Below, piece by piece: positions 2,390-10,114 of a stretch of DNA of 64,000 bases. The notes under the pieces are model-generated. The model was given only the letters and a program-made list of their open reading frames with translations. It did not search any database and had not been told where the DNA came from. The DNA comes from Cuniculiplasma divulgatum. Its GTDB lineage: Archaea > Thermoplasmatota > Thermoplasmata > Thermoplasmatales > Thermoplasmataceae. The number at the start of each line of letters is the position of its first letter. The stretch's first letter is position 1. The stretch covers positions 124,001-188,000 of the forward strand of contig CP133595.1 of the NCBI GenBank assembly GCA_031200235.1, written 5' to 3'. A program made the position numbers and the translations under genes.

Positions 2390-2766
2390 AGCTGCCATTT
2401 CCGGATCTGGACAAGCAGATCAAATACACACTCTACATGAACATCATGAATGACATGCGCATTCCCTCCAGGGACCCGGACCACATGGAAAGGACCCTGA
2501 GGGACATCATACTTTTCGATGCACGTATCAGGGCCGAGCGTGGATCACCCCAGGACATGGACCGGTATATAGAGAGGATGGAGAAGCTGTCAGACCGATT
2601 GAATGATCTTGATCCGGATTCCAGCGATTATTCGCAGAAGGTATTCGCGGTGATGCATGACATGATAATAGAGATAAATTTCCTTGTGGAGGCCCTGAAC
2701 ACATTCGGAACACCGGCCAAGAAGAGGCAGATGCCTGTGGAGGGGATACCGTATGAGAAGATCTGA
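2377..2766 (+). CDS. Acidic helical protein of unknown function, TTG start
   Basis: This is a 129-residue protein with a TTG start eight bases after AGGAGG (2363-2368). It is rich in Asp, Glu, Arg and Met and appears all-helical, without transmembrane segments or cysteines. The gene overlaps the gene before it by 13 bp and the ATPase gene after it by 14 bp. The three are therefore almost certainly translated together. A role as an adaptor of the ATPase or as a small structural protein is possible from position alone. No known family was recognised. Confidence 0.7.
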   Translation: MAEVELPFPDLDKQIKYTLYMNIMNDMRIPSRDPDHMERTLRDIILFDARIRAERGSPQDMDRYIERMEKLSDRLNDLDPDSSDYSQKVFAVMHDMIIEINFLVEALNTFGTPAKKRQMPVEGIPYEKI

Positions 2767-3664
2767 TTATTATGTGCTTCCAAGGTTCATGGATCTCCAG
2801 AGGGACGGAGAGCAGGGCCATAACGCCCTTCTGATGGGGATGCCCGGAGCGGGAAAGACCACACTCCTCCAGTATCTGGCAATCCTGGCGGCAAAGGGAA
2901 AAGACATTTTCGGCGACAGCAGGGAGAAGCAGGCGGGAATCTGGAGAGCAAGAAGGCATGACAAGTACCTGGAGTTCTTCTCCCTTGGAATAGGCCGCCT
3001 GATGTTGCCCGCAGGCTCAAACTACGATATTCTCAAGGTGAGGGGCACAGATAGGCAGATCATCACCCTGGATGACCTCGAATCCGAGGGCATAGATTAC
3101 GACACATATGCATCCGCTGCAGAGATAGTAGAGAAGCTGGAACCCGGAAAGATACTGGCCATACTGTACCCGGGGAACACATTAGAGGAGACGGCATTCT
3201 ATGCCGAACTCTTCAGGGCTCTTGTCAACAGGAAGACAGACGAATGGGTTCATCTCAGCATCGATGAGGCTGGAGATCTTCTCCCTCCCTACACCGGGGA
3301 TTCCTGGAAGATACAGAAGGACTTTGTGGATGCCACAGCAGATTTTCGTAAGCGTCTCATTAACAGCGAATTCGGCTGCCACTGGCATACGGATCTGGAT
3401 CCACGACTGTGGGGAAAATTGCCATACCACATATACAAGATGGGCGCAAAACGGATGAAGGGCGAGACCCCAAGGCTGAAGCAGGAGACGATCAACAATA
3501 CAGGCGTTGGCGAGGGCTGGATAACGTACGGGGCATTCTTTGACAAGTTCTTATATCCGCCAATGCAAGCCAGTGCGGCACTTGGTTATTCATTGCAGAC
3601 CATATCGAGGTCCATGCAGGTGGAGGTGGAGGATTCATGGGGACAGAAAAAGAAGAAAAAGTAG
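2753..3664 (+). CDS. P-loop ATPase of the HerA/FtsK- or Zot-like type
   Basis: The 303-residue protein has a clear Walker A motif (GMPGAGKTT, residues 29-37) and a Walker B motif (hydrophobic strand then IDEAGDL, about residues 165-176, with Asp171 and Glu172). No transmembrane helix is seen, and the last residues are a Lys run. ATPases of this plan pump DNA into virions or through conjugation pores, or assemble filamentous-virus particles. Which of these applies cannot be told from the sequence. It lies directly after membrane-protein genes and overlaps the serine recombinase by 28 bp. This arrangement supports a DNA-packaging or DNA-transfer module rather than a host repair role. Confidence 0.75.
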   Translation: MRRSDYYVLPRFMDLQRDGEQGHNALLMGMPGAGKTTLLQYLAILAAKGKDIFGDSREKQAGIWRARRHDKYLEFFSLGIGRLMLPAGSNYDILKVRGTDRQIITLDDLESEGIDYDTYASAAEIVEKLEPGKILAILYPGNTLEETAFYAELFRALVNRKTDEWVHLSIDEAGDLLPPYTGDSWKIQKDFVDATADFRKRLINSEFGCHWHTDLDPRLWGKLPYHIYKMGAKRMKGETPRLKQETINNTGVGEGWITYGAFFDKFLYPPMQASAALGYSLQTISRSMQVEVEDSWGQKKKKK

Positions 3665-4592: not shown

Positions 4593-4889
4593 ATGACCGA
4601 GTGGAGAACAGTAAGGAGGAACGGCAGGAAGGTCAGGATCCCCGTCACCACAGCAGGCAACGGGCACCTGAATATACAGAAGTCCATAAAGCACCCTGGA
4701 AGGGTCCGGGAGTACGTGAGGAGGGAATACGGCGATGAGGCCTTCACGGAGCGCGGCACCATAAAGCCAGAATACCTGGAGAAGGCAAAGGAGAGGGCAG
4801 AGGCCCAGCACAACAGGTCTCTCGTGGATGCAATAGATCTGGCCATGCGGCTGAACGCATTGAGACAGCATAATGTCCAAAGTCAGTAA
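4593..4889 (+). CDS. Small basic protein of unknown function
   Basis: This 98-residue protein is rich in Arg and Lys with no cysteines or membrane segments. The basic N-terminal half (residues 1-45) could bind nucleic acid, and the C-terminal half is helical. The start is supported by a TATA-like box about 25 bases upstream. It stands alone as the first gene of the right arm of the element, with non-coding sequence on both sides. No family is recognised, so a regulatory or replication role is only a guess. Confidence 0.6.
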   Translation: MTEWRTVRRNGRKVRIPVTTAGNGHLNIQKSIKHPGRVREYVRREYGDEAFTERGTIKPEYLEKAKERAEAQHNRSLVDAIDLAMRLNALRQHNVQSQ

Positions 4890-5327: not shown

Positions 5328-5513
5328 TCACTTCAGGATGTGGTCACTGTACCATCGCTCAATTTCTTTCTTTGTGGCCATTCTGATAAATTCCTGAACA
5401 GAAAGGTAAGACTGGTCTTTCTGCAGTATGTCTTCGATCTCCTTCAGCAGTCCTACAGGAAGGCGAACTCCCACATTCTTAGTCACTATTTTAGGCACAA
5501 TATCCCTGGACAA
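5328..5513 (-). CDS. Ribbon-helix-helix DNA-binding protein
   Basis: The 61-residue protein has the pattern of a CopG/Arc-type ribbon-helix-helix regulator. A short strand carries VGVRLPVGLL, helix one is KEIEDIL, and helix two is VQEFIRMATKKEIERW. Such dimers bind operator DNA through the strand and often control plasmid copy number or act as antitoxins. The start is taken as TTG 5513; an in-frame GTG slightly inside is an alternative. It is the only minus-strand gene in the element and is divergent from another small RHH-like gene at 5582. The 68-base gap between them is a likely operator. Confidence 0.75.
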   Translation of the reverse strand: MSRDIVPKIVTKNVGVRLPVGLLKEIEDILQKDQSYLSVQEFIRMATKKEIERWYSDHILK

Positions 5514-5552
5514 CTAACACTCAATACTCAATAAATAGTATGAAGCATGAAA

Positions 5553-5560
5553 TTTATATA
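5553..5560 (+). promoter_or_regulatory. TATA box of the long zinc-protein operon, in a divergent control region
   Basis: TTTATATA lies 22-29 bases before ATG 5582, so the first gene of the operon is read from a leaderless message. An AT-rich TATTTATT-like stretch for the minus strand lies near 5530, serving the divergent RHH gene. The repeated CTCAATA motif (about 5519-5533) between the two genes could be an operator. Everything from 5582 to 10092 may be read from this one promoter, because later genes overlap without gaps. Confidence 0.6.
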
Positions 5561-5581: not shown

Positions 5582-5734
5582 ATGGCTAACAGAACAGCAA
5601 CAATGATTAGGGTAAAGGAACCCACCAGGGAAGCCCTGGAAACCATGAAGATAGTTCCTGAAGAGCCCTACGACAAGGTGGTTCAGAGGCTCCTTGCATT
5701 TTTTAAGGAGCACCAGAAAGAGGAGGTCCATTGA
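5582..5734 (+). CDS. Short RHH-type protein, antitoxin- or regulator-like
   Basis: ATG 5582 is chosen because the TATA box sits about 26 bases upstream; a longer frame from 5540 would start before the expected transcript. The 50-residue product has a strand (TATMIRVKEP) and two helices (TREALETMKI, YDKVVQRLLAFF). This is the pattern of small archaeal VapB-like ribbon-helix-helix proteins. No toxin gene follows; the next gene encodes a zinc-knuckle protein. It probably autoregulates the operon it heads, perhaps together with the divergent RHH protein. Confidence 0.65.
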   Translation: MANRTATMIRVKEPTREALETMKIVPEEPYDKVVQRLLAFFKEHQKEEVH

Positions 5735-5735
5735 A

Positions 5736-5870
5736 ATGACCTGCAAATTCTGTGACCGCCCGGGTCACACGGCCACAGTCAGGCTCCCCGGCTTTGACGG
5801 TCAGAAGGTGGAGGCCACAATCGAGATCTGCGATCAGGACGCAGAGCTGCTGAGGAAGGTGAAGCAATGA
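5736..5870 (+). CDS. 44-residue zinc-knuckle protein
   Basis: The short gene follows the previous stop by one base, after AGGAGG at 5721-5726. Its product begins MTCKFCDRPGH, with a CxxC pair and a nearby His, and has one more Cys near residue 32. That is enough for a single zinc site. The stop overlaps the next start (ATGA at 5867). It is the first of a series of tiny zinc-binding proteins in this operon. Function unknown. Confidence 0.65.
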   Translation: MTCKFCDRPGHTATVRLPGFDGQKVEATIEICDQDAELLRKVKQ

Positions 5871-6103
5871 GCCCACTCGAGATCGAGAAGAGAGAGCACG
5901 ACAGGCAGCTGGTCCTGGAATACCAGAGGATGGCCAATGAATGTGCCAGGGCCCGCGTAACCTTCCCAGACAATGTCTACCTCCAGAACGCGATGAATTT
6001 TGCCATACGGAAGGCTGCCTCGAGCCTGAAGAAATTCGTGAAGAAATACGGCATGCAGCCTATCGTGGAAGTACTGCTTGAAAATGAAGTGGAGGGATTC
6101 TGA
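5867..6103 (+). CDS. Small basic helical protein, unknown
   Basis: The 78-residue protein is helical and basic in its second half (KAASSLKKFVKKYG). Only a single Cys is present, so it is not a zinc finger. It overlaps the preceding gene by four bases (ATGA) and the following gene by one base (TGATG), indicating coupled translation. No family is recognised. Confidence 0.65.
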   Translation: MSPLEIEKREHDRQLVLEYQRMANECARARVTFPDNVYLQNAMNFAIRKAASSLKKFVKKYGMQPIVEVLLENEVEGF

Positions 6104-6351
6104 TGTCCCATCTTTTCATCGTGAAAAAGAGCGATGGCTACCACATAGAGTCTCTCTTTTCAGAGACCCCTGACGGCGATAGCTATGCAGTCAGATACAC
6201 GTGCACACATAGGCAACCAACGAAGGATGACGGCATCTATGATTTCTACGATTGCCTTCAGAGAGGGTTTGGAAAGGATGTGGAGGTTTCACAGGTGAGC
6301 TTTAATCCTAAGCTGTTTCAGGTGGTAGAGGAGCGAAAGGAGGGGCTCTGA
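6103..6351 (+). CDS. Small acidic protein, unknown
   Basis: The 82-residue protein is a mix of beta and helical sequence with many aromatic residues (YDFYDCLQRGFG) and two isolated cysteines. It has no membrane segment or known motif. The ATG overlaps the previous stop and the stop overlaps the next ATG, one base each. It is a member of the compact element operon. No function can be assigned. Confidence 0.65.
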   Translation: MSHLFIVKKSDGYHIESLFSETPDGDSYAVRYTCTHRQPTKDDGIYDFYDCLQRGFGKDVEVSQVSFNPKLFQVVEERKEGL

Positions 6352-6500
6352 TGGGGGTAACACTTCGTGTGTGTCCGCGGTGCGGTTCCGAGGATGTCGA
6401 GATCGACCGGGATGATTACTGGGTCTTGATCGTCGTGTGCCCTATCTGTGGATGGTCAGGCCACGCTGACGAGCTGAAAGAAGTGAAGGTGAGCGTCTGA
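6351..6500 (+). CDS. 49-residue zinc-ribbon protein
   Basis: The product is a minimal zinc ribbon: CPRCG at residues 8-12 and CPICG about 25 residues later, separated by acidic beta-like sequence. Free-standing ribbons of this size usually bind nucleic acid or another protein. The gene overlaps both neighbours by one base and is preceded by AAGGAGGGG, a strong ribosome site. Confidence 0.7.
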   Translation: MGVTLRVCPRCGSEDVEIDRDDYWVLIVVCPICGWSGHADELKEVKVSV

Positions 6501-6676
6501 TGTCGGAAGTACATTGCAGGAACTGCGGCCATCTTCTCTATCTGGTGCAATTTGGCCATTATGAGCATTTCACACGGTACTACCGTCCCTCGGGCCTTCC
6601 CTATACGACAGTCCGGTGCCATGCTCCCAGGTGCAGCTGCACGGATCCTCAGCCTGTGCTGGAGGTGATATCATGA
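6500..6676 (+). CDS. 58-residue zinc-binding protein
   Basis: CRNCGH at residues 6-11 is paired with CHAPRCSC near residues 44-51, giving a four-Cys (or Cys/His) zinc site around a tyrosine- and histidine-rich middle. It overlaps the preceding gene by one base and the next by four (ATGA at 6673). It was found by reading between longer frames; no start other than ATG 6500 fits the coupling pattern. Function unknown. Confidence 0.65.
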   Translation: MSEVHCRNCGHLLYLVQFGHYEHFTRYYRPSGLPYTTVRCHAPRCSCTDPQPVLEVIS

Positions 6677-6873
6677 AATGCCCCAAGTGCAACATGGAAA
6701 TGCAAAGGATTGCCAAGACCGTGAACGGCTATGACGGCACGTACACCTTCTGGCTCTGCAACGGGGAAGGAAGATTTCCGAGAAAGCACATCATAAAGAC
6801 AGAGGAATGGGGCAGAAACGTGTATTTCTATGAGGTTGGAGAGTGGAAGATGATTTCACAGGGGGTGGCCTGA
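6673..6873 (+). CDS. 66-residue zinc-knuckle protein
   Basis: The start is ATG 6673, after GGAGG at 6661-6665. The product begins MKCPKCNMEM and has one further Cys (LCNGEGR) in a beta-rich fold. It resembles the first half of a zinc ribbon. It overlaps its neighbours by four bases and one base. No function is assigned. Confidence 0.65.
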   Translation: MKCPKCNMEMQRIAKTVNGYDGTYTFWLCNGEGRFPRKHIIKTEEWGRNVYFYEVGEWKMISQGVA

Positions 6874-7334
6874 TGTCAAAGAGAGTGCTGGTTTTTGACG
6901 AGGCCTACAGAATGCTTGAGGAGGCAAGGGAGCAGAGAATCCAGGACGGATGGAAGCGTGGGGACTCACTCGAGCAGATAGCCTCTGAGGCAATTATTTT
7001 CTGGTACAGCCAGGGAGACAATGAAAGGTTCAGAGACAACAATGACGAGAAATTCATAATCGAGAATGCGGGAAAACCCGTTAATGTCGCGTGCGAGAAA
7101 TGTGGCCAGCCTGGAGAATCATATCACTTCCCGGAGTCTGAGGAGCTGCACTTCTTCTGCCATGACCATGCGAAGGATGAGGGCTTCTGCCCGTCCTGCG
7201 GTAATTTTGTTGCAGGAATTGAGATTGAGGATTTCATCTTCATGCCGAAGTACGGAGTGTGTTCGGAATGCTACAGGGGAACCCAGGAGGAACTTAGCCA
7301 AGAGGATGATGAGGGACAGGAGGCTGAGGCCTGA
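6873..7334 (+). CDS. 153-residue protein with N-terminal helices and a multi-zinc C-terminus
   Basis: The start is ATG 6873, overlapping the previous stop by one base; the longer frame from 6843 lies inside the preceding gene. Residues 1-60 are charged and helical (FDEAYRMLEEAREQRIQDG). Then come CEKCG, an FFCHDH block, CPSCG and CSEC, enough for two zinc sites. An acidic Glu/Asp-rich tail ends the protein. The helical part plus metal-binding part suggests a DNA- or partner-binding adaptor. No family is recognised. Confidence 0.7.
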   Translation: MSKRVLVFDEAYRMLEEAREQRIQDGWKRGDSLEQIASEAIIFWYSQGDNERFRDNNDEKFIIENAGKPVNVACEKCGQPGESYHFPESEELHFFCHDHAKDEGFCPSCGNFVAGIEIEDFIFMPKYGVCSECYRGTQEELSQEDDEGQEAEA

Positions 7335-7516
7335 TGCCTCCCAGATACAGAACAGCAAGGCAGGGCTCACAGTTCCGTGCCTTTGCGGAATGTTCCTGCG
7401 GTAGGATAGTCACCACAAAGTCGATCAACAGGCACATCAGGGACAATCCGGGACATTATGAGGTCCGCCGGTTCGAGAGGAGCAAGGCCCTGCTGCTGAA
7501 GGAGGCACTGCAATGA
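7334..7516 (+). CDS. 60-residue single zinc-finger protein
   Basis: This basic protein has a CxC pair (ECSCGR) followed by a helix with two histidines (INRHIRDNPGH). That is a C2H2-like finger, preceded and followed by Arg-rich sequence. Such a protein could contact DNA directly. It overlaps the previous gene by one base and the next by four. Confidence 0.7.
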   Translation: MPPRYRTARQGSQFRAFAECSCGRIVTTKSINRHIRDNPGHYEVRRFERSKALLLKEALQ

Positions 7517-7740
7517 CATGCAGGACCTGCGGCGGAACAGGAGGAATCTCATCCACAATCAATGGCGCCCCCTATGGTGCCGGCTACTGGCCTATGGATT
7601 ACGGAGAACCGTGTCCTGATTGCGTAGAAATGGGAATATGCCCAAAGTGCGACAGCAGGATGGTCTTTGACATTGATTCGGGAGCGTACAGGTGCCCCGT
7701 ATGCGGCTACGACGAGCTGACAGGGGAGGTAAAGAAATGA
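7513..7740 (+). CDS. Zinc protein with a DnaJ-like knuckle and a zinc ribbon
   Basis: The 75-residue protein starts MTCRTCGGTGG, the CxxCxGxG pattern of DnaJ zinc-finger repeats, followed by CPDC. It ends with a classical ribbon (CPKC, then CPVCG). Eight cysteines would bind two zinc ions. A zinc-finger region like that of DnaJ but without a J domain fits a small nucleic-acid- or protein-binding adaptor. It overlaps neighbours by four bases on each side. Confidence 0.7.
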   Translation: MTCRTCGGTGGISSTINGAPYGAGYWPMDYGEPCPDCVEMGICPKCDSRMVFDIDSGAYRCPVCGYDELTGEVKK

Positions 7741-8477
7741 TAGCCTCAGAGGTGCAGCTCTGTTCAACATGCGGCCATCCCATCAAGGAGAAGGAGGACG
7801 GCAGCTGGAGGCACACGAACTCAGTTGATGGCCATGTCTTCACCACGAAGGCCTGCCAGCAGTGCATCGCCGAGGGCAGGGAGTGCCGGAACGCCCAGCC
7901 CCACAACATGGAAGTGTCCGTGACCGGAACGGCCGGTGAAGTGGCGCTTCCCAGGGTTCCGAAGGTGAAGGAGGAGCACTATATCATCTGCAAAATCTGT
8001 GGGATATACGCAAAATCACAGGTAGCCCTCATGTCGCATTACAGGGAGAAGCATCCAATCGACCATAAGGAGCTCCTGCGCCTCTACAAGGAGGGAAAGA
8101 CAGTGGAGGAGATGGCCGCCATCCTGGAGAGGACACCGGCGACCATAAGATACCATCTTCTGAAGCTCCCTGAAATCCCGGAAGAACCGAAGCCTGCCGA
8201 TCCATCCGATGATGATATCAGGCACGAGAACGCCGAGCTGAAGAGGGAAGTGGAGGATCTTCGCCAGAAGATCAGGGAGATCCAGGAGAAGCCTTCCGGA
8301 TGGACCAGGGTATTCCATCTTGAATCATCCGGCGACGGTGCACATGAGGGGGTTCAGGCCGTCCGTAATGCAATAAAGTCTGCCCTCCCCTATTTCCCCC
8401 TCTCAGTCTCCCTGGACGTGGAATCAAACAAGGAGCTGCATTCCACACGGATATTTGTGGAGGTCAGGACAAAATGA
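7737..8477 (+). CDS. Multidomain zinc-finger, helix-turn-helix and coiled-coil protein
   Basis: The start is ATG 7737, overlapping the previous stop by four bases. Within 246 residues, a CSTCGH/CQQC zinc site is followed by a C2H2 finger (CKICG, then HYREKH) at about residues 83-105. A helix-turn-helix follows (EGKTVEEMAAILERTPATIRY), then a coiled coil (about 160-187) and a compact C-terminal domain. It looks like the main DNA-binding regulator or nucleoprotein of the operon. The domain combination is not one I recognise from a named family. Confidence 0.75.
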   Translation: MIASEVQLCSTCGHPIKEKEDGSWRHTNSVDGHVFTTKACQQCIAEGRECRNAQPHNMEVSVTGTAGEVALPRVPKVKEEHYIICKICGIYAKSQVALMSHYREKHPIDHKELLRLYKEGKTVEEMAAILERTPATIRYHLLKLPEIPEEPKPADPSDDDIRHENAELKREVEDLRQKIREIQEKPSGWTRVFHLESSGDGAHEGVQAVRNAIKSALPYFPLSVSLDVESNKELHSTRIFVEVRTK

Positions 8478-8917
8478 TGACTATCCAGAAACAGGATCTC
8501 CGGGAGCTGTTTGATCCTGTGAAGAAGGAACTCACTGGGGTTGATGGTCGCACATTCTGGAGGTGCAGGAAGTGCGGAAAGCTCTTTATTGCAAAATCCC
8601 GGGGCGAGCACCTGAAGAGGAAGCATCCCGAGGTCAGGCTCTCCGGGCCCATCCCCACACCTGACAGGATCAGGGAGGCATGGATAAGATGGTATGAGAG
8701 CGGCCCCCACAGCATCGACCTTCGAGAAAGGATGGAATCCGACCTTGACAGAATCACCGCTGTCACCATGGAATCGGAGATAAAGCGGATAGTGGGGCTC
8801 ACCGGGCACACAATCACATGTCCCGGCTGTGGCCATGAATGGACCAGGAGATCCAGGACGGCAGGGGCAGCAAGATGCCCGCACTGCGGGAAATTTTTCC
8901 AGGAGGATGAAATATGA
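8474..8917 (+). CDS. C2H2 finger plus zinc-ribbon protein
   Basis: The 147-residue protein has a C2H2 finger near its N-terminus (CRKCGK, then HLKRKH). A helical linker follows, and a C-terminal zinc ribbon (CPGCGH, then CPHCGK). Both modules commonly bind DNA. It overlaps the previous gene by four bases, and its stop overlaps the next ATG. The N-terminal finger resembles that of the preceding protein, which suggests the two are related. Confidence 0.75.
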   Translation: MMTIQKQDLRELFDPVKKELTGVDGRTFWRCRKCGKLFIAKSRGEHLKRKHPEVRLSGPIPTPDRIREAWIRWYESGPHSIDLRERMESDLDRITAVTMESEIKRIVGLTGHTITCPGCGHEWTRRSRTAGAARCPHCGKFFQEDEI

Positions 8918-9084
8918 AGACACTGAAAGATGCAATGAAGCAGGCATTGAAGGAGATGAACCTTGCGGAGATCCCTCCGCCGTCGACTCCGGCAAGGCAT
9001 GAGTTTGTGGTAAAGGTCCTCAGGATCATGAGATCTGAGGGTGAGGTCCAGAGGAAGATCTCGAAGCTGGAGGATTTCCCATGA
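8914..9084 (+). CDS. 56-residue helical protein
   Basis: The product is basic and mostly helical, with a Pro-rich turn in the middle (EIPPPSTPARHE). It has no Cys. AGGAGG at 8901-8906 precedes ATG 8914 by seven bases, and the four-base overlaps with its neighbours support it as a real gene. Function unknown. Confidence 0.6.
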   Translation: MKTLKDAMKQALKEMNLAEIPPPSTPARHEFVVKVLRIMRSEGEVQRKISKLEDFP

Positions 9085-9188
9085 CATTCTCACTTACAAA
9101 CTTCTGCCCTGGCCCGGTCCATCCGGCTATATGGGCCCAGTGGCAGCGGATTGGCGATGATGAAGGAGGGCATGAAATTGAAGCCTGA
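9081..9188 (+). CDS. Very short reading frame before the integrase
   Basis: The frame starts at an ATGA overlap with the preceding stop and runs 35 codons, ending 11 bases inside the integrase gene. The peptide is Trp-, Pro- and Gly-rich. Its main role may be to carry ribosomes to the integrase ribosome site, which lies within it (9164-9169). The overlap pattern supports translation, but composition is too short to judge. Confidence 0.4.
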   Translation: MTFSLTNFCPGPVHPAIWAQWQRIGDDEGGHEIEA

Positions 9189-10092
9189 GTTCATGGAATA
9201 CATCCAGGAGAAATATGCCATCAAGACCCAGGTGAATTATCTCAGATCCCTGAGGCACCTGGAAGCCCAGGGAATAGTACTGGAGGACAAGGAATTATTC
9301 CGTTCCTGGGCAATATCACAGCGCAACAGGGGAATGAGGGACCGCACCCTGAACGTCTACCTGAAGGCCTACAACGCTTATCTGGACTTCCTTCGTCTTC
9401 CGAGGTTCAAGCCCTATAAGACGTTCGACGCCATCAAAAGGGATCGGGCCACCATGGACGATTACAGGCTCCTCCTTAAGGGTTGCAGGGGCTATACCGA
9501 GCCCAGGGACTCCCTTATTGTGGAGCTGCTCTTCAAGGCAGGAATCCGGTACAGGGAGCTCATATCCCTCTCTGTGGACAGCATCACGGAGGACAAGATC
9601 ATAGTGGAGGCAGGAAAGAACCAGAAGTACCGCGAGATAGTGACGTTCCCCTCTGTGTACAGGGCCTACAGGTCATATCTTCCATTCAGATCGCAGCTCA
9701 TCAGGAGATCCAACAGGAACACCACAGCTCTCCTGGTGAACCAATATGGAGATCCGGTCACGGTTGAAGGCGGCAGACACGTCATATACAGGATAGCAAA
9801 GCGTGCAGGCATTGAGTTCTCACCCCACAGGGCCAGGAGGTTCTTTGCAAGGCATCTGTGGGAATCAGGCGTCAGGGCCGAATTAATTCAGAAGGCCATG
9901 GGGCATGAGAAGCTCGACACCACGCTGACATACATAGCACCCGATGGAACGGATGCATTCGAGGAGATGCGGGCAAGGATGAAGAAGCTGGATTTTAGCG
10001 TGCCCCTCACAGGAGGGGGGCAAATCCTGGAGCATATGGGACGCCCCGAACGGGATTTGGACCCGTGTCACGAGCTCGACAGGCTCGTATGA
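9178..10092 (+). CDS. Tyrosine-recombinase integrase of the element
   Basis: This 304-residue XerC/D- and SSV-like recombinase would insert and excise the element at tRNA-Asp. The catalytic residues are visible: Arg in AGIRYREL (about 124), the PHRARR box (His217, Arg220), His243 in MGHEKL, and the nucleophile Tyr252 in LTYIAP. A core-binding N-terminal domain precedes them. The start is taken as TTG 9178 because AGGAGG (9164-9169) lies eight bases upstream, exactly as for the genes at 775 and 2377; ATGs at 9157-9172 are too close to it or upstream of it. The last 17 codons are the antisense of the tRNA-Asp 3' half. Confidence 0.9.
   Translation: MKPEFMEYIQEKYAIKTQVNYLRSLRHLEAQGIVLEDKELFRSWAISQRNRGMRDRTLNVYLKAYNAYLDFLRLPRFKPYKTFDAIKRDRATMDDYRLLLKGCRGYTEPRDSLIVELLFKAGIRYRELISLSVDSITEDKIIVEAGKNQKYREIVTFPSVYRAYRSYLPFRSQLIRRSNRNTTALLVNQYGDPVTVEGGRHVIYRIAKRAGIEFSPHRARRFFARHLWESGVRAELIQKAMGHEKLDTTLTYIAPDGTDAFEEMRARMKKLDFSVPLTGGGQILEHMGRPERDLDPCHELDRLV
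10042..10092. other. Probable right attachment site inside tRNA-Asp
   Basis: The integrase reading frame runs into the 3' part of the tRNA-Asp gene, and the element lies on the tRNA 3' side. This is the usual geometry for archaeal integrases that target tRNA genes. The att core should be a segment of the tRNA 3' half, repeated at the other element end outside this window. The exact core length cannot be seen here. Confidence 0.6.
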
Positions 10093-10114
10093 TAGGCCGC
10101 TACACTATCGGGGC
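10042..10114 (-). tRNA. tRNA-Asp (GTC)
   Basis: A 73-nt cloverleaf is read on the minus strand. The acceptor stem GCCCCGA pairs with TCGGGGC, with discriminator G. The anticodon stem CGAGC/GCTCG holds the loop CTGTCGA, giving anticodon GTC. The T-stem ACGGG/CCCGT holds TCCAAAT. No CCA is encoded. It appears intact, so the element restored the gene when it integrated. Confidence 0.95.

Follow-up and report, generated by a model that had tools for sequence, protein, structure and literature searches.

We propose that a chain of small zinc-type genes leading into the integrase of a provirus in the Cuniculiplasma divulgatum chromosome (order Thermoplasmatales) is, at a probability of about 0.52, an early or lysogeny-control operon of temperate virus-like Thermoplasmatales elements, whose zinc proteins would have DNA or the transcription apparatus of the host as binding partner. 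The chain comprises 14 small genes (5582-9188 of the window, the whole 64,000-nucleotide stretch of DNA analysed) followed by the integrase (9172-10092), with nearly all overlaps being 1 or 4 bases, and the 25.3-kb provirus sits in a tRNA-Asp gene. Its features are as follows.

2753-3664, plus strand: P-loop ATPase, kept (62%) in the related proviruses with which it was compared
4593-4889, plus strand: gene of a VP2-like virion DNA-binding protein (PF25632, E 3.5e-22)
5328-5513, minus strand: divergent ribbon-helix-helix (RHH) regulator, probable operon repressor, start codon uncertain, with homologues in other elements
5550-5560, plus strand: TATA-like box (TTTATATA region) in the sequence, about 27-30 bases 5' of the g1 ATG
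5582-5734, plus strand: g1, 50 aa, small antitoxin/RHH-like protein (DUF7557, E 0.0014, below cut-off)
5736-5870, plus strand: g2, 44 aa, single CxxC knuckle by sequence; homologue search found none
5867-6103, plus strand: g3, 78 aa, helical, lacking a zinc motif, with homologues in the G003 and G010 elements
6103-6351, plus strand: g4, 82 aa, matching no family in the profile search
6351-6500, plus strand: g5, 49 aa, zinc ribbon with two CxxC and a sub-threshold Lar profile match
6500-6676, plus strand: g6, 58 aa, CxxC plus CHxxxCxC in its sequence, matching no family in the profile search
6673-6873, plus strand: g7, 66 aa, CPKC at the N-terminus plus Cys/His, by sequence
6873-7334, plus strand: g8, 153 aa, N-terminal domain in common with a G024 protein, then a Cys-rich zinc part
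7334-7516, plus strand: g9, 60 aa, CSC and two His, candidate finger by sequence
7513-7740, plus strand: g10, 75 aa, four CxxC, with a homologue in a G019 element
7737-8477, plus strand: g11, 246 aa, zinc knuckles, C2H2 finger, helix-turn-helix (HTH), coiled coil and alpha/beta C-terminal domain
8474-8917, plus strand: g12, 147 aa, fusion of a C2H2 protein with the signature zinc ribbon (Zn_ribbon_SprT, barely above cut-off)
8914-9084, plus strand: g13, 56 aa, conserved in alignment, KLEEF tail
9081-9188, plus strand: g14, 35 aa micropeptide frame, from its overlap and ribosome site; homologue search found none
9172-10092, plus strand: tyrosine integrase (PF00589, E 3e-24), final codons inside the tRNA-Asp gene
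10042-10054, no strand: attachment site CGCCCCGAACGGG, 3' end of tRNA-Asp
10042-10114, minus strand: tRNA-Asp(gtc), integration target

The 13-bp repeat at the attachment site has a second copy at genome position 108749, left of the window, and the two copies lie 25.3 kb apart. Hence, with a tyrosine integrase adjoining the tRNA and a direct repeat marking the opposite end, the provirus fits a temperate integrated element with tRNA attachment. We call it virus-like because VP2, ATPase and resolvase genes are present; small membrane-type proteins are found at L001:12980-14281. The VP2-like protein matches Thermus IN93, SSeV and SSV1. The provirus thus has in common with Fuselloviridae-type proviruses the VP2 homologue by which these are recognised, and which is also found in Thermus IN93-type viruses, but the SSV-type split of the integrase gene on integration was not found, the integrase being a single intact frame at one end.

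Every junction from g2 to g14 overlaps by exactly 1 or 4 bases, g1 and g2 are separated by 1 base, and g14 overlaps the integrase by 17 bases. A GGAGG or GGTGA-like ribosome site stands directly 5' of each gene from g2 onward, and the spacing of the TATA-like box to the g1 ATG suggests a leaderless transcript. The thirteen overlapping or abutting genes of the first-pass annotation were borne out, as positions 5736-9084 hold 12 genes, 13 with either g1 or g14, and 15 with both and the integrase.

Nine products (g2 and g5 through g12) have Cys/His clusters, in line with the nine zinc-module genes claimed earlier, but complete four-ligand sets occur only in five (g5, g8, g10, g11 and g12), with g2, g6, g7 and g9 weaker. 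The concentration of such modules had been called unusual, and we found CxxC in 8/13 operon genes vs 11/101 neighbouring host genes (Fisher p = 1e-4), gene counts being approximate for host and element since our simple gene caller missed the true start of VP2 as well as some genes on the opposite strand. Corroborating this, the operon has 15.7 CxxC per 1000 residues vs 1.06 in neighbouring host genes (about 15-fold) and a Cys content of 4.3% vs 0.9%. Hence, the CxxC concentration of the operon is not chance. The closest, weak relatives of the ribbons are RNA polymerase subunit P and the TFS and TFIIB ribbons, and the products look, from their sequences, like nucleic-acid-binding or transcription-type zinc proteins. 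Resemblance of this kind to ribbons of the transcription machinery is weak, and zinc ribbons in general show it.

Two individual assignments were rejected. The DnaJ-like finger of the first-pass annotation did not survive for g10, as DnaJ zinc-domain families were absent from its profile search up to E = 1 and, of its four CxxC, just the first lies in a CxxCxGG-like context; its best matches, also weak, are TFIIB- and TFS-type ribbons. Restriction alleviation by a Lar protein was dismissed for g5, which scores below both curated cut-offs (PF14354, 25.3 bits vs 28.6; TIGR03655, 23.3 vs 39.6). For g11, we found a match to a transcription regulator (phrog_323, E 9e-7), with the Pfam matches of its HTH and finger below cut-off. 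AlphaFold models built without alignments were of low confidence (mean pLDDT 58 and 60), and the g11 HTH has a pLDDT of about 88-90 in the AF2 model. The modelled C-terminal domain of g11 has a weak Alba-like fold match with no E-value below 0.03, which is a lead only.

We looked for conservation of the short frames and their order in related elements, and found that eight other elements from six related species carry homologous chains with a tyrosine integrase as the last gene (one with an early frameshift). Their tRNA neighbours are Pro, Ser(TGA), Ser(GCT), Ala and Lys in the five elements with a tRNA on the contig, and of the 72 junctions across chains, 48 overlap by exactly 4 bases. Most weaker A6 profile matches (E > 1e-6) fall in unrelated frames and were excluded from these counts. 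For the element ends, a 12-bp repeat was found at the left of G003 and none in three others, where we looked for left-end repeats; the ends are not firmly placed.

Gene content differs strongly between elements. The zinc-ribbon cysteines are invariant in 8 elements and the C2H2 ligands in 4, and the C2H2 and ribbon parts of g12 are two adjacent separate genes in the G003, G002 and G010 elements. Further homologues are those of g3 (G003 and G010; blastp E 2e-5 and 1.5e-4), g8 (L111:5695-5982 in G024; E 8e-6, with a DZR match below cut-off) and g10 (L058:1286-1516; 50% identical when aligned, E 2e-20), and strong profile matches of g13 are limited to the tRNA-Asp provirus and three G019 elements. 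Near the g14 position, the G019 elements encode a conserved peptide of 34-36 aa that differs from g14. The orphan frames of the chain are g2, g4, g6, g7, g9 and g14, and five of the nine zinc proteins (g2, g5, g6, g7 and g9) have no credible homologue in other elements. Since homologous chain genes have dN/dS of mostly 0.1-0.36 (leaving out the g12C row for tRNA-Asp provirus/L107, which has an out-of-frame coordinate), translation of the small frames is supported, and by this estimate the conserved chain genes are under purifying selection. Hence, the chain looks less like an accident than like a control module common to temperate elements.

Viral contigs yielded no match to g11, VP2 or the ATPase, a phage collection none to g11 or g12, and plasmids none to g12; the comparison therefore relies on Thermoplasmatales genomes. 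A DNA-level search of 61 relatives returned only the query stretch itself and trivial matches. The available sequence of the VP2/ATPase-bearing proviruses L016-L019 has no zinc-operon homologues, and because most of these contigs end before the integrase side, this apparent non-conservation is misleading.

A divergent RHH or winged-HTH (wHTH) gene lies 5' of the chain, at varying distance, in the tRNA-Asp provirus, G003, G010, G019a, G019b, G011 and G024; none was identified upstream of the G019c chain. The regulator at 5328-5513 has homologues at L056:26-214, L059:4555-4977 and L017:125-316, and TATA-like sites occur at -29 to -32 in the G010, G019b and G024 elements also. Hence, the chain start has a phage-like genetic switch layout that recurs in relatives, with a divergent DNA-binding regulator before an early operon. 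In the lambda-type immunity region, a divergent repressor adjoins an early operon with integration functions among its genes; the layout is the same, the proteins are unrelated, and repression here is putative.

In the operon we propose, the promoter would be flanked by the divergent RHH protein and g1, and a single leaderless transcript would cover g1-g14 and the integrase, the ATGA/TGATG overlaps coupling translation of adjoining genes. The RHH protein would repress the operon. The zinc proteins, by predicted zinc and nucleic-acid binding, would act on DNA or the host transcription apparatus, timing expression of the integrase and other element genes and, once the element has entered or been induced, retuning transcription of the host. 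Last to be made from the same transcript, the integrase would put the element into tRNA-Asp. The orphans g2, g5, g6, g7 and g9 fit accessory or anti-defence genes equally, and anti-defence roles for lineage-specific zinc proteins are possible.

By analogy with Orf2/Orf3 for IntSNJ2, the small proteins might instead be recombination helpers or directionality factors of the integrase. Co-transcribed small helpers are established for IntSNJ2 (PMC8371274), the integrase ends the chain in the tRNA-Asp provirus and other elements, and six elements retain a protein of about 130 aa encoded immediately before the integrase; however, that protein is missing from the tRNA-Asp provirus, and a dedicated partner should travel with its integrase. 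We found integrases only 31% identical in the G002/G010 pair vs 91% for the ribbon and 72% for the 130-aa protein, and 29% in the G019a/G019b pair vs 72% for the ribbon and 71% for a 121-aa protein. By these identities, integrases were swapped at least twice while their zinc-ribbon partners stayed 72-91% identical; across elements, integrase and ribbon identities still have a positive rank correlation (0.53). Since the module was kept across integrase swaps, an integrase-specific cofactor role is lowered, and we consider it unlikely. The exchange argument rests on two clear cases. An early cassette of host-takeover or anti-defence micro-proteins, in which the conserved members only regulate the cassette, is about equally doubtful: variable content, the five orphan zinc proteins, the sub-threshold Lar match and the richness of archaeal virus early genes in anti-defence genes (PMC11065993) speak for it, but the Lar scores fall short, PADLOC matches reflect only generic ribbon similarity to Cas12f, and the search found no homologue of any tested anti-defence protein.

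The earlier proposal of a shared nucleoprotein, here a nucleoprotein or packaging complex on the viral genome, had the weak Alba-like match of g11, a fold of chromatin proteins, behind it, and the operon adjoins the VP2 gene. It is very improbable, given the truncated L016-L019 sequence without the zinc operon and the presence of the module in G019 and other loci where no virion-gene match was seen. That the overlapping frames arose by chance is scarcely credible; most are very short (35-80 aa), but the ribosome sites, the consistent overlaps and the selection on homologues oppose this, and for the conserved genes it is already contradicted. Of the roles proposed earlier, one in transcription fits best with what is seen, a virus-like element whose products look like transcription-type zinc proteins.

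The control-operon reading has partial parallels in known systems. In haloarchaeal virus SNJ2, IntSNJ2 is co-transcribed with small proteins (orf1-orf3), a suggested lysogeny control point (PMC8371274). Small genes beside an integrase are common to both, and the overlapping chain here predicts a shared transcript with the integrase; compared by description, two helpers there (coiled-coil and MarR-like) contrast with a zinc-protein chain here, where the integrase can be swapped without the module, co-inheritance not being a known requirement of IntSNJ2 helpers. Zn-ribbon/RHH genes recur in archaeal integrated elements, for example thaumarchaeal arCOG08677 in the relevant part of PMC6563490, and ArcVen-P3 has VP2, RHH and, per the figure key, a Zn-binding protein (PMC4158269). 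These descriptions share with our provirus small zinc-binding and CopG/RHH proteins, whereas up to nine zinc genes in an integrase-terminated operon are not described in those parts of the two sources. AFV1p06, a small C2H2 finger protein of an archaeal virus, binds zinc and DNA and resembles g11/g12 by kind rather than by demonstrated sequence relation, but usually one or two finger sequences occur per virus (PMC3541406).

Our literature search found no description of such a zinc/integrase module and few described Thermoplasmatales viruses. It is a speculative, quite unlikely extension that integrated elements of this order share a dedicated control module of interchangeable zinc micro-proteins that target the archaeal transcription machinery by imitating, or competing with, its Rpo12, TFS or TFIIB ribbons, and that this module persists as the integrase, the insertion site and further genes around it are exchanged. 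The choice between integration, maintenance and excision in archaeal temperate elements is little understood beyond a few model systems, and this compact recurrent operon, with a probable repressor, small zinc regulators and an integrase, is a defined gene set for experiments. Its conserved ribbon and C2H2 proteins are markers for locating such elements in Thermoplasmatales genomes, and the natural integrase-exchange pairs tell general regulators from integrase-specific factors.

The small genes g1-g14 lead directly into a tyrosine integrase gene. We found that the junctions from g2 to g14 overlap by 1 or 4 bases and that a GGAGG/GGTGA-type ribosome site lies ahead of every gene from g2 onward.

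Features of the operon and its borders (window positions)
5328-5513, divergent from g1: RHH gene, 68 bases from g1
5582-9188, plus strand: small operon genes g1-g14
9172-10092, plus strand: tyrosine integrase gene (PF00589, E = 3e-24), stopping inside the tRNA-Asp gene
10042-10114, minus strand: tRNA-Asp gene

The first-pass annotation had described nine or more tiny zinc proteins in one overlapping chain. The chain stands, and nine operon products carry Cys/His clusters; complete ligand sets are found in five of those. The operon has 15.7 CxxC motifs per 1000 residues; the figures are 1.06 for neighbouring host genes and 0.71 for the remainder of the element. The enrichment is confined to this operon and is not element-wide.

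Homologues of the divergent RHH gene occur in genomes G003 and G019 and in a VP2-bearing provirus (L017). A TATA-like box lies ~29 bases ahead of the g1 start, and three other elements have similar boxes ~31 bases ahead of their first gene. A divergent RHH or wHTH gene also stands upstream of the chain in G003, G010, G011, G024 and two of the three G019 elements (G019a and G019b), somewhat removed from it in G019b and G011; upstream of the G019c chain, no such regulator was identified. Judged by its layout, the control region would be one in which a repressor gene faces an early operon.

The search of other elements that the first-pass annotation had proposed brought up homologous integrase-terminated chains in eight further elements. 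A first search with the concatenated operon proteins against 390 genomes returned G003 (same genus) and G019, whose loci, when read, held chains of tiny overlapping genes with the integrase last. A profile of g12 added copies in G002, G010, a third G019 element, G011 and G024, giving nine elements in seven species with the window included. Most of the others sit on draft contigs, and that of G002 starts at a contig edge, inside the gene chain. An integrase gene terminates all nine elements (frameshifted near its start in G011, running off the contig in G010), and the targets are tRNA-Asp (window), tRNA-Pro (G003), tRNA-Ser(TGA) (G002), tRNA-Ser(GCT) (G019 contig C22), tRNA-Ala (G011) and tRNA-Lys (G024). 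The overlap is exactly 4 bases at 48 of 72 junctions. CxxC motifs occur in 24 of 59 non-integrase genes of the eight other operons vs 11 of 101 host genes (p = 2e-5), an enrichment partly built in because most of these operons were found using ribbons.

The signature ribbon (the C-terminal half of g12) recurs in eight elements; just nine of its positions are invariant, and these include its four cysteines. In G003, G002 and G010 the C2H2 half of g12 exists as its own gene, immediately upstream of the ribbon gene and with all four ligands invariant; the G010 draft sequence has it broken in two. Since the two are fused in g12, we suggest from this arrangement that the C2H2 and ribbon proteins work together. 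The window shares g13 with all three G019 elements, g10 with one of them (50% identity, E = 2e-20), g3 with G003 and G010, and the g8 N-terminus with G024. No credible homologue of g2, g4, g5, g6, g7, g9 or g14 was found in the eight other elements, the single g5 match (E = 0.01) being generic. For most pairs close enough to compare, dN/dS was 0.1-0.36 (0.67 in one pair), of which only the direction is safe because several synonymous distances are near saturation.

Small proteins acting as integrase-specific directionality factors would be expected to travel with their integrase. Instead, the G002 and G010 ribbons are 91% and their 130-aa proteins 72% identical, whereas the integrases share 31%; similarly, G019a and G019b have ribbons 72%, 121-aa proteins 71% and integrases 29% identical. 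Conversely, G003 and G010 have integrases 89% identical and ribbons only 64% identical. Because small-protein identities are high where integrases are 29-31% identical, these comparisons indicate that the module was retained through at least two integrase exchanges, and because it outlasts them, a general regulatory role is favoured. A helper role is possible for individual small proteins; IntSNJ2 is the known archaeal precedent for integrase helpers, and its integrase is active without them (PMC8371274).

Several modules are joined in g11: zinc knuckles, a C2H2 finger, a coiled coil, an alpha/beta end domain and a helix-turn-helix modelled at a pLDDT of about 90. The PHROG that g11 matches (E = 9e-7) carries the annotation transcription regulator, and the end domain gave repeated weak Alba-family matches (entries named Alba scored no better than E = 0.1). 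The ribbon profiles weakly match RNA polymerase subunit P (E = 0.001), and g10 weakly matches TFIIB and TFS ribbons. Because zinc ribbons resemble each other, this likeness to the transcription machinery is only a hint.

The window covers bases 124001-188000 of a 2.0-Mb single-contig genome, and the 13 terminal bases at the 3' end of tRNA-Asp (CGCCCCGAACGGG) have a second copy to its left, at genome position 108749. The repeats are 25.3 kb apart, and the element spans L001:4749 (L001 being the host chromosome left of the window) to window position 10054. Within it we found a VP2-type virion protein (PF25632, E = 3.5e-22) with relatives in Thermus IN93, SSeV and SSV1, as well as a P-loop ATPase and a resolvase, both of which have ~60-64% identical relatives on other Thermoplasmata contigs. 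It also encodes a surface-type protein of >1,900 aa (L001:14263 to about window position 217) with a C-terminal membrane helix, partly conserved in L017 and L018. The 25.3-kb element is a provirus or virus-like element. This VP2-bearing provirus has relatives only in Thermoplasmata contigs: L016, L017, L018, L019 and a G003 element in tRNA-Pro, which has left-arm genes in common with it. The G019 elements, as far as their sequence was read, gave no virion-gene match. For the ATPase, the one other virion-side protein searched besides VP2, the phage collection gave no credible hit. The provirus may represent a new virus group, in part related to fuselloviruses or IN93-type viruses. The left arm holds a second cluster (L001:7234-9457), with a zinc-bearing 281-aa protein that has a relative in L017 and a Gp37-like gene ~50-70% conserved in L016, L019 and the G003 element. 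A second integrase-like frame (L119:11438-12493) lies close to what is probably the far boundary of the G003 element.

Archaeal integrated elements commonly carry zinc ribbons and RHH proteins (PMC6563490; PMC4158269), and finger sequences typically number one or two per archaeal virus, in several families (PMC3541406). We found no description of this operon in the open-access literature searched. We rate the operon as one of the known lysogeny/integration kind, from which it differs in its unusual zinc-protein content.

A micropeptide of 34-36 aa with a conserved LQIGPFFMVIPI-type core occurs in all three G019 operons (L058:1072-1176, L059:1980-2090 and L109:7414-7521). On contigs C22, C28 and C33 (L109, L058 and L059), this one genome carries three different elements, each with a version of the module and an integrase unlike the other two, which makes it a good natural test for cross-talk.
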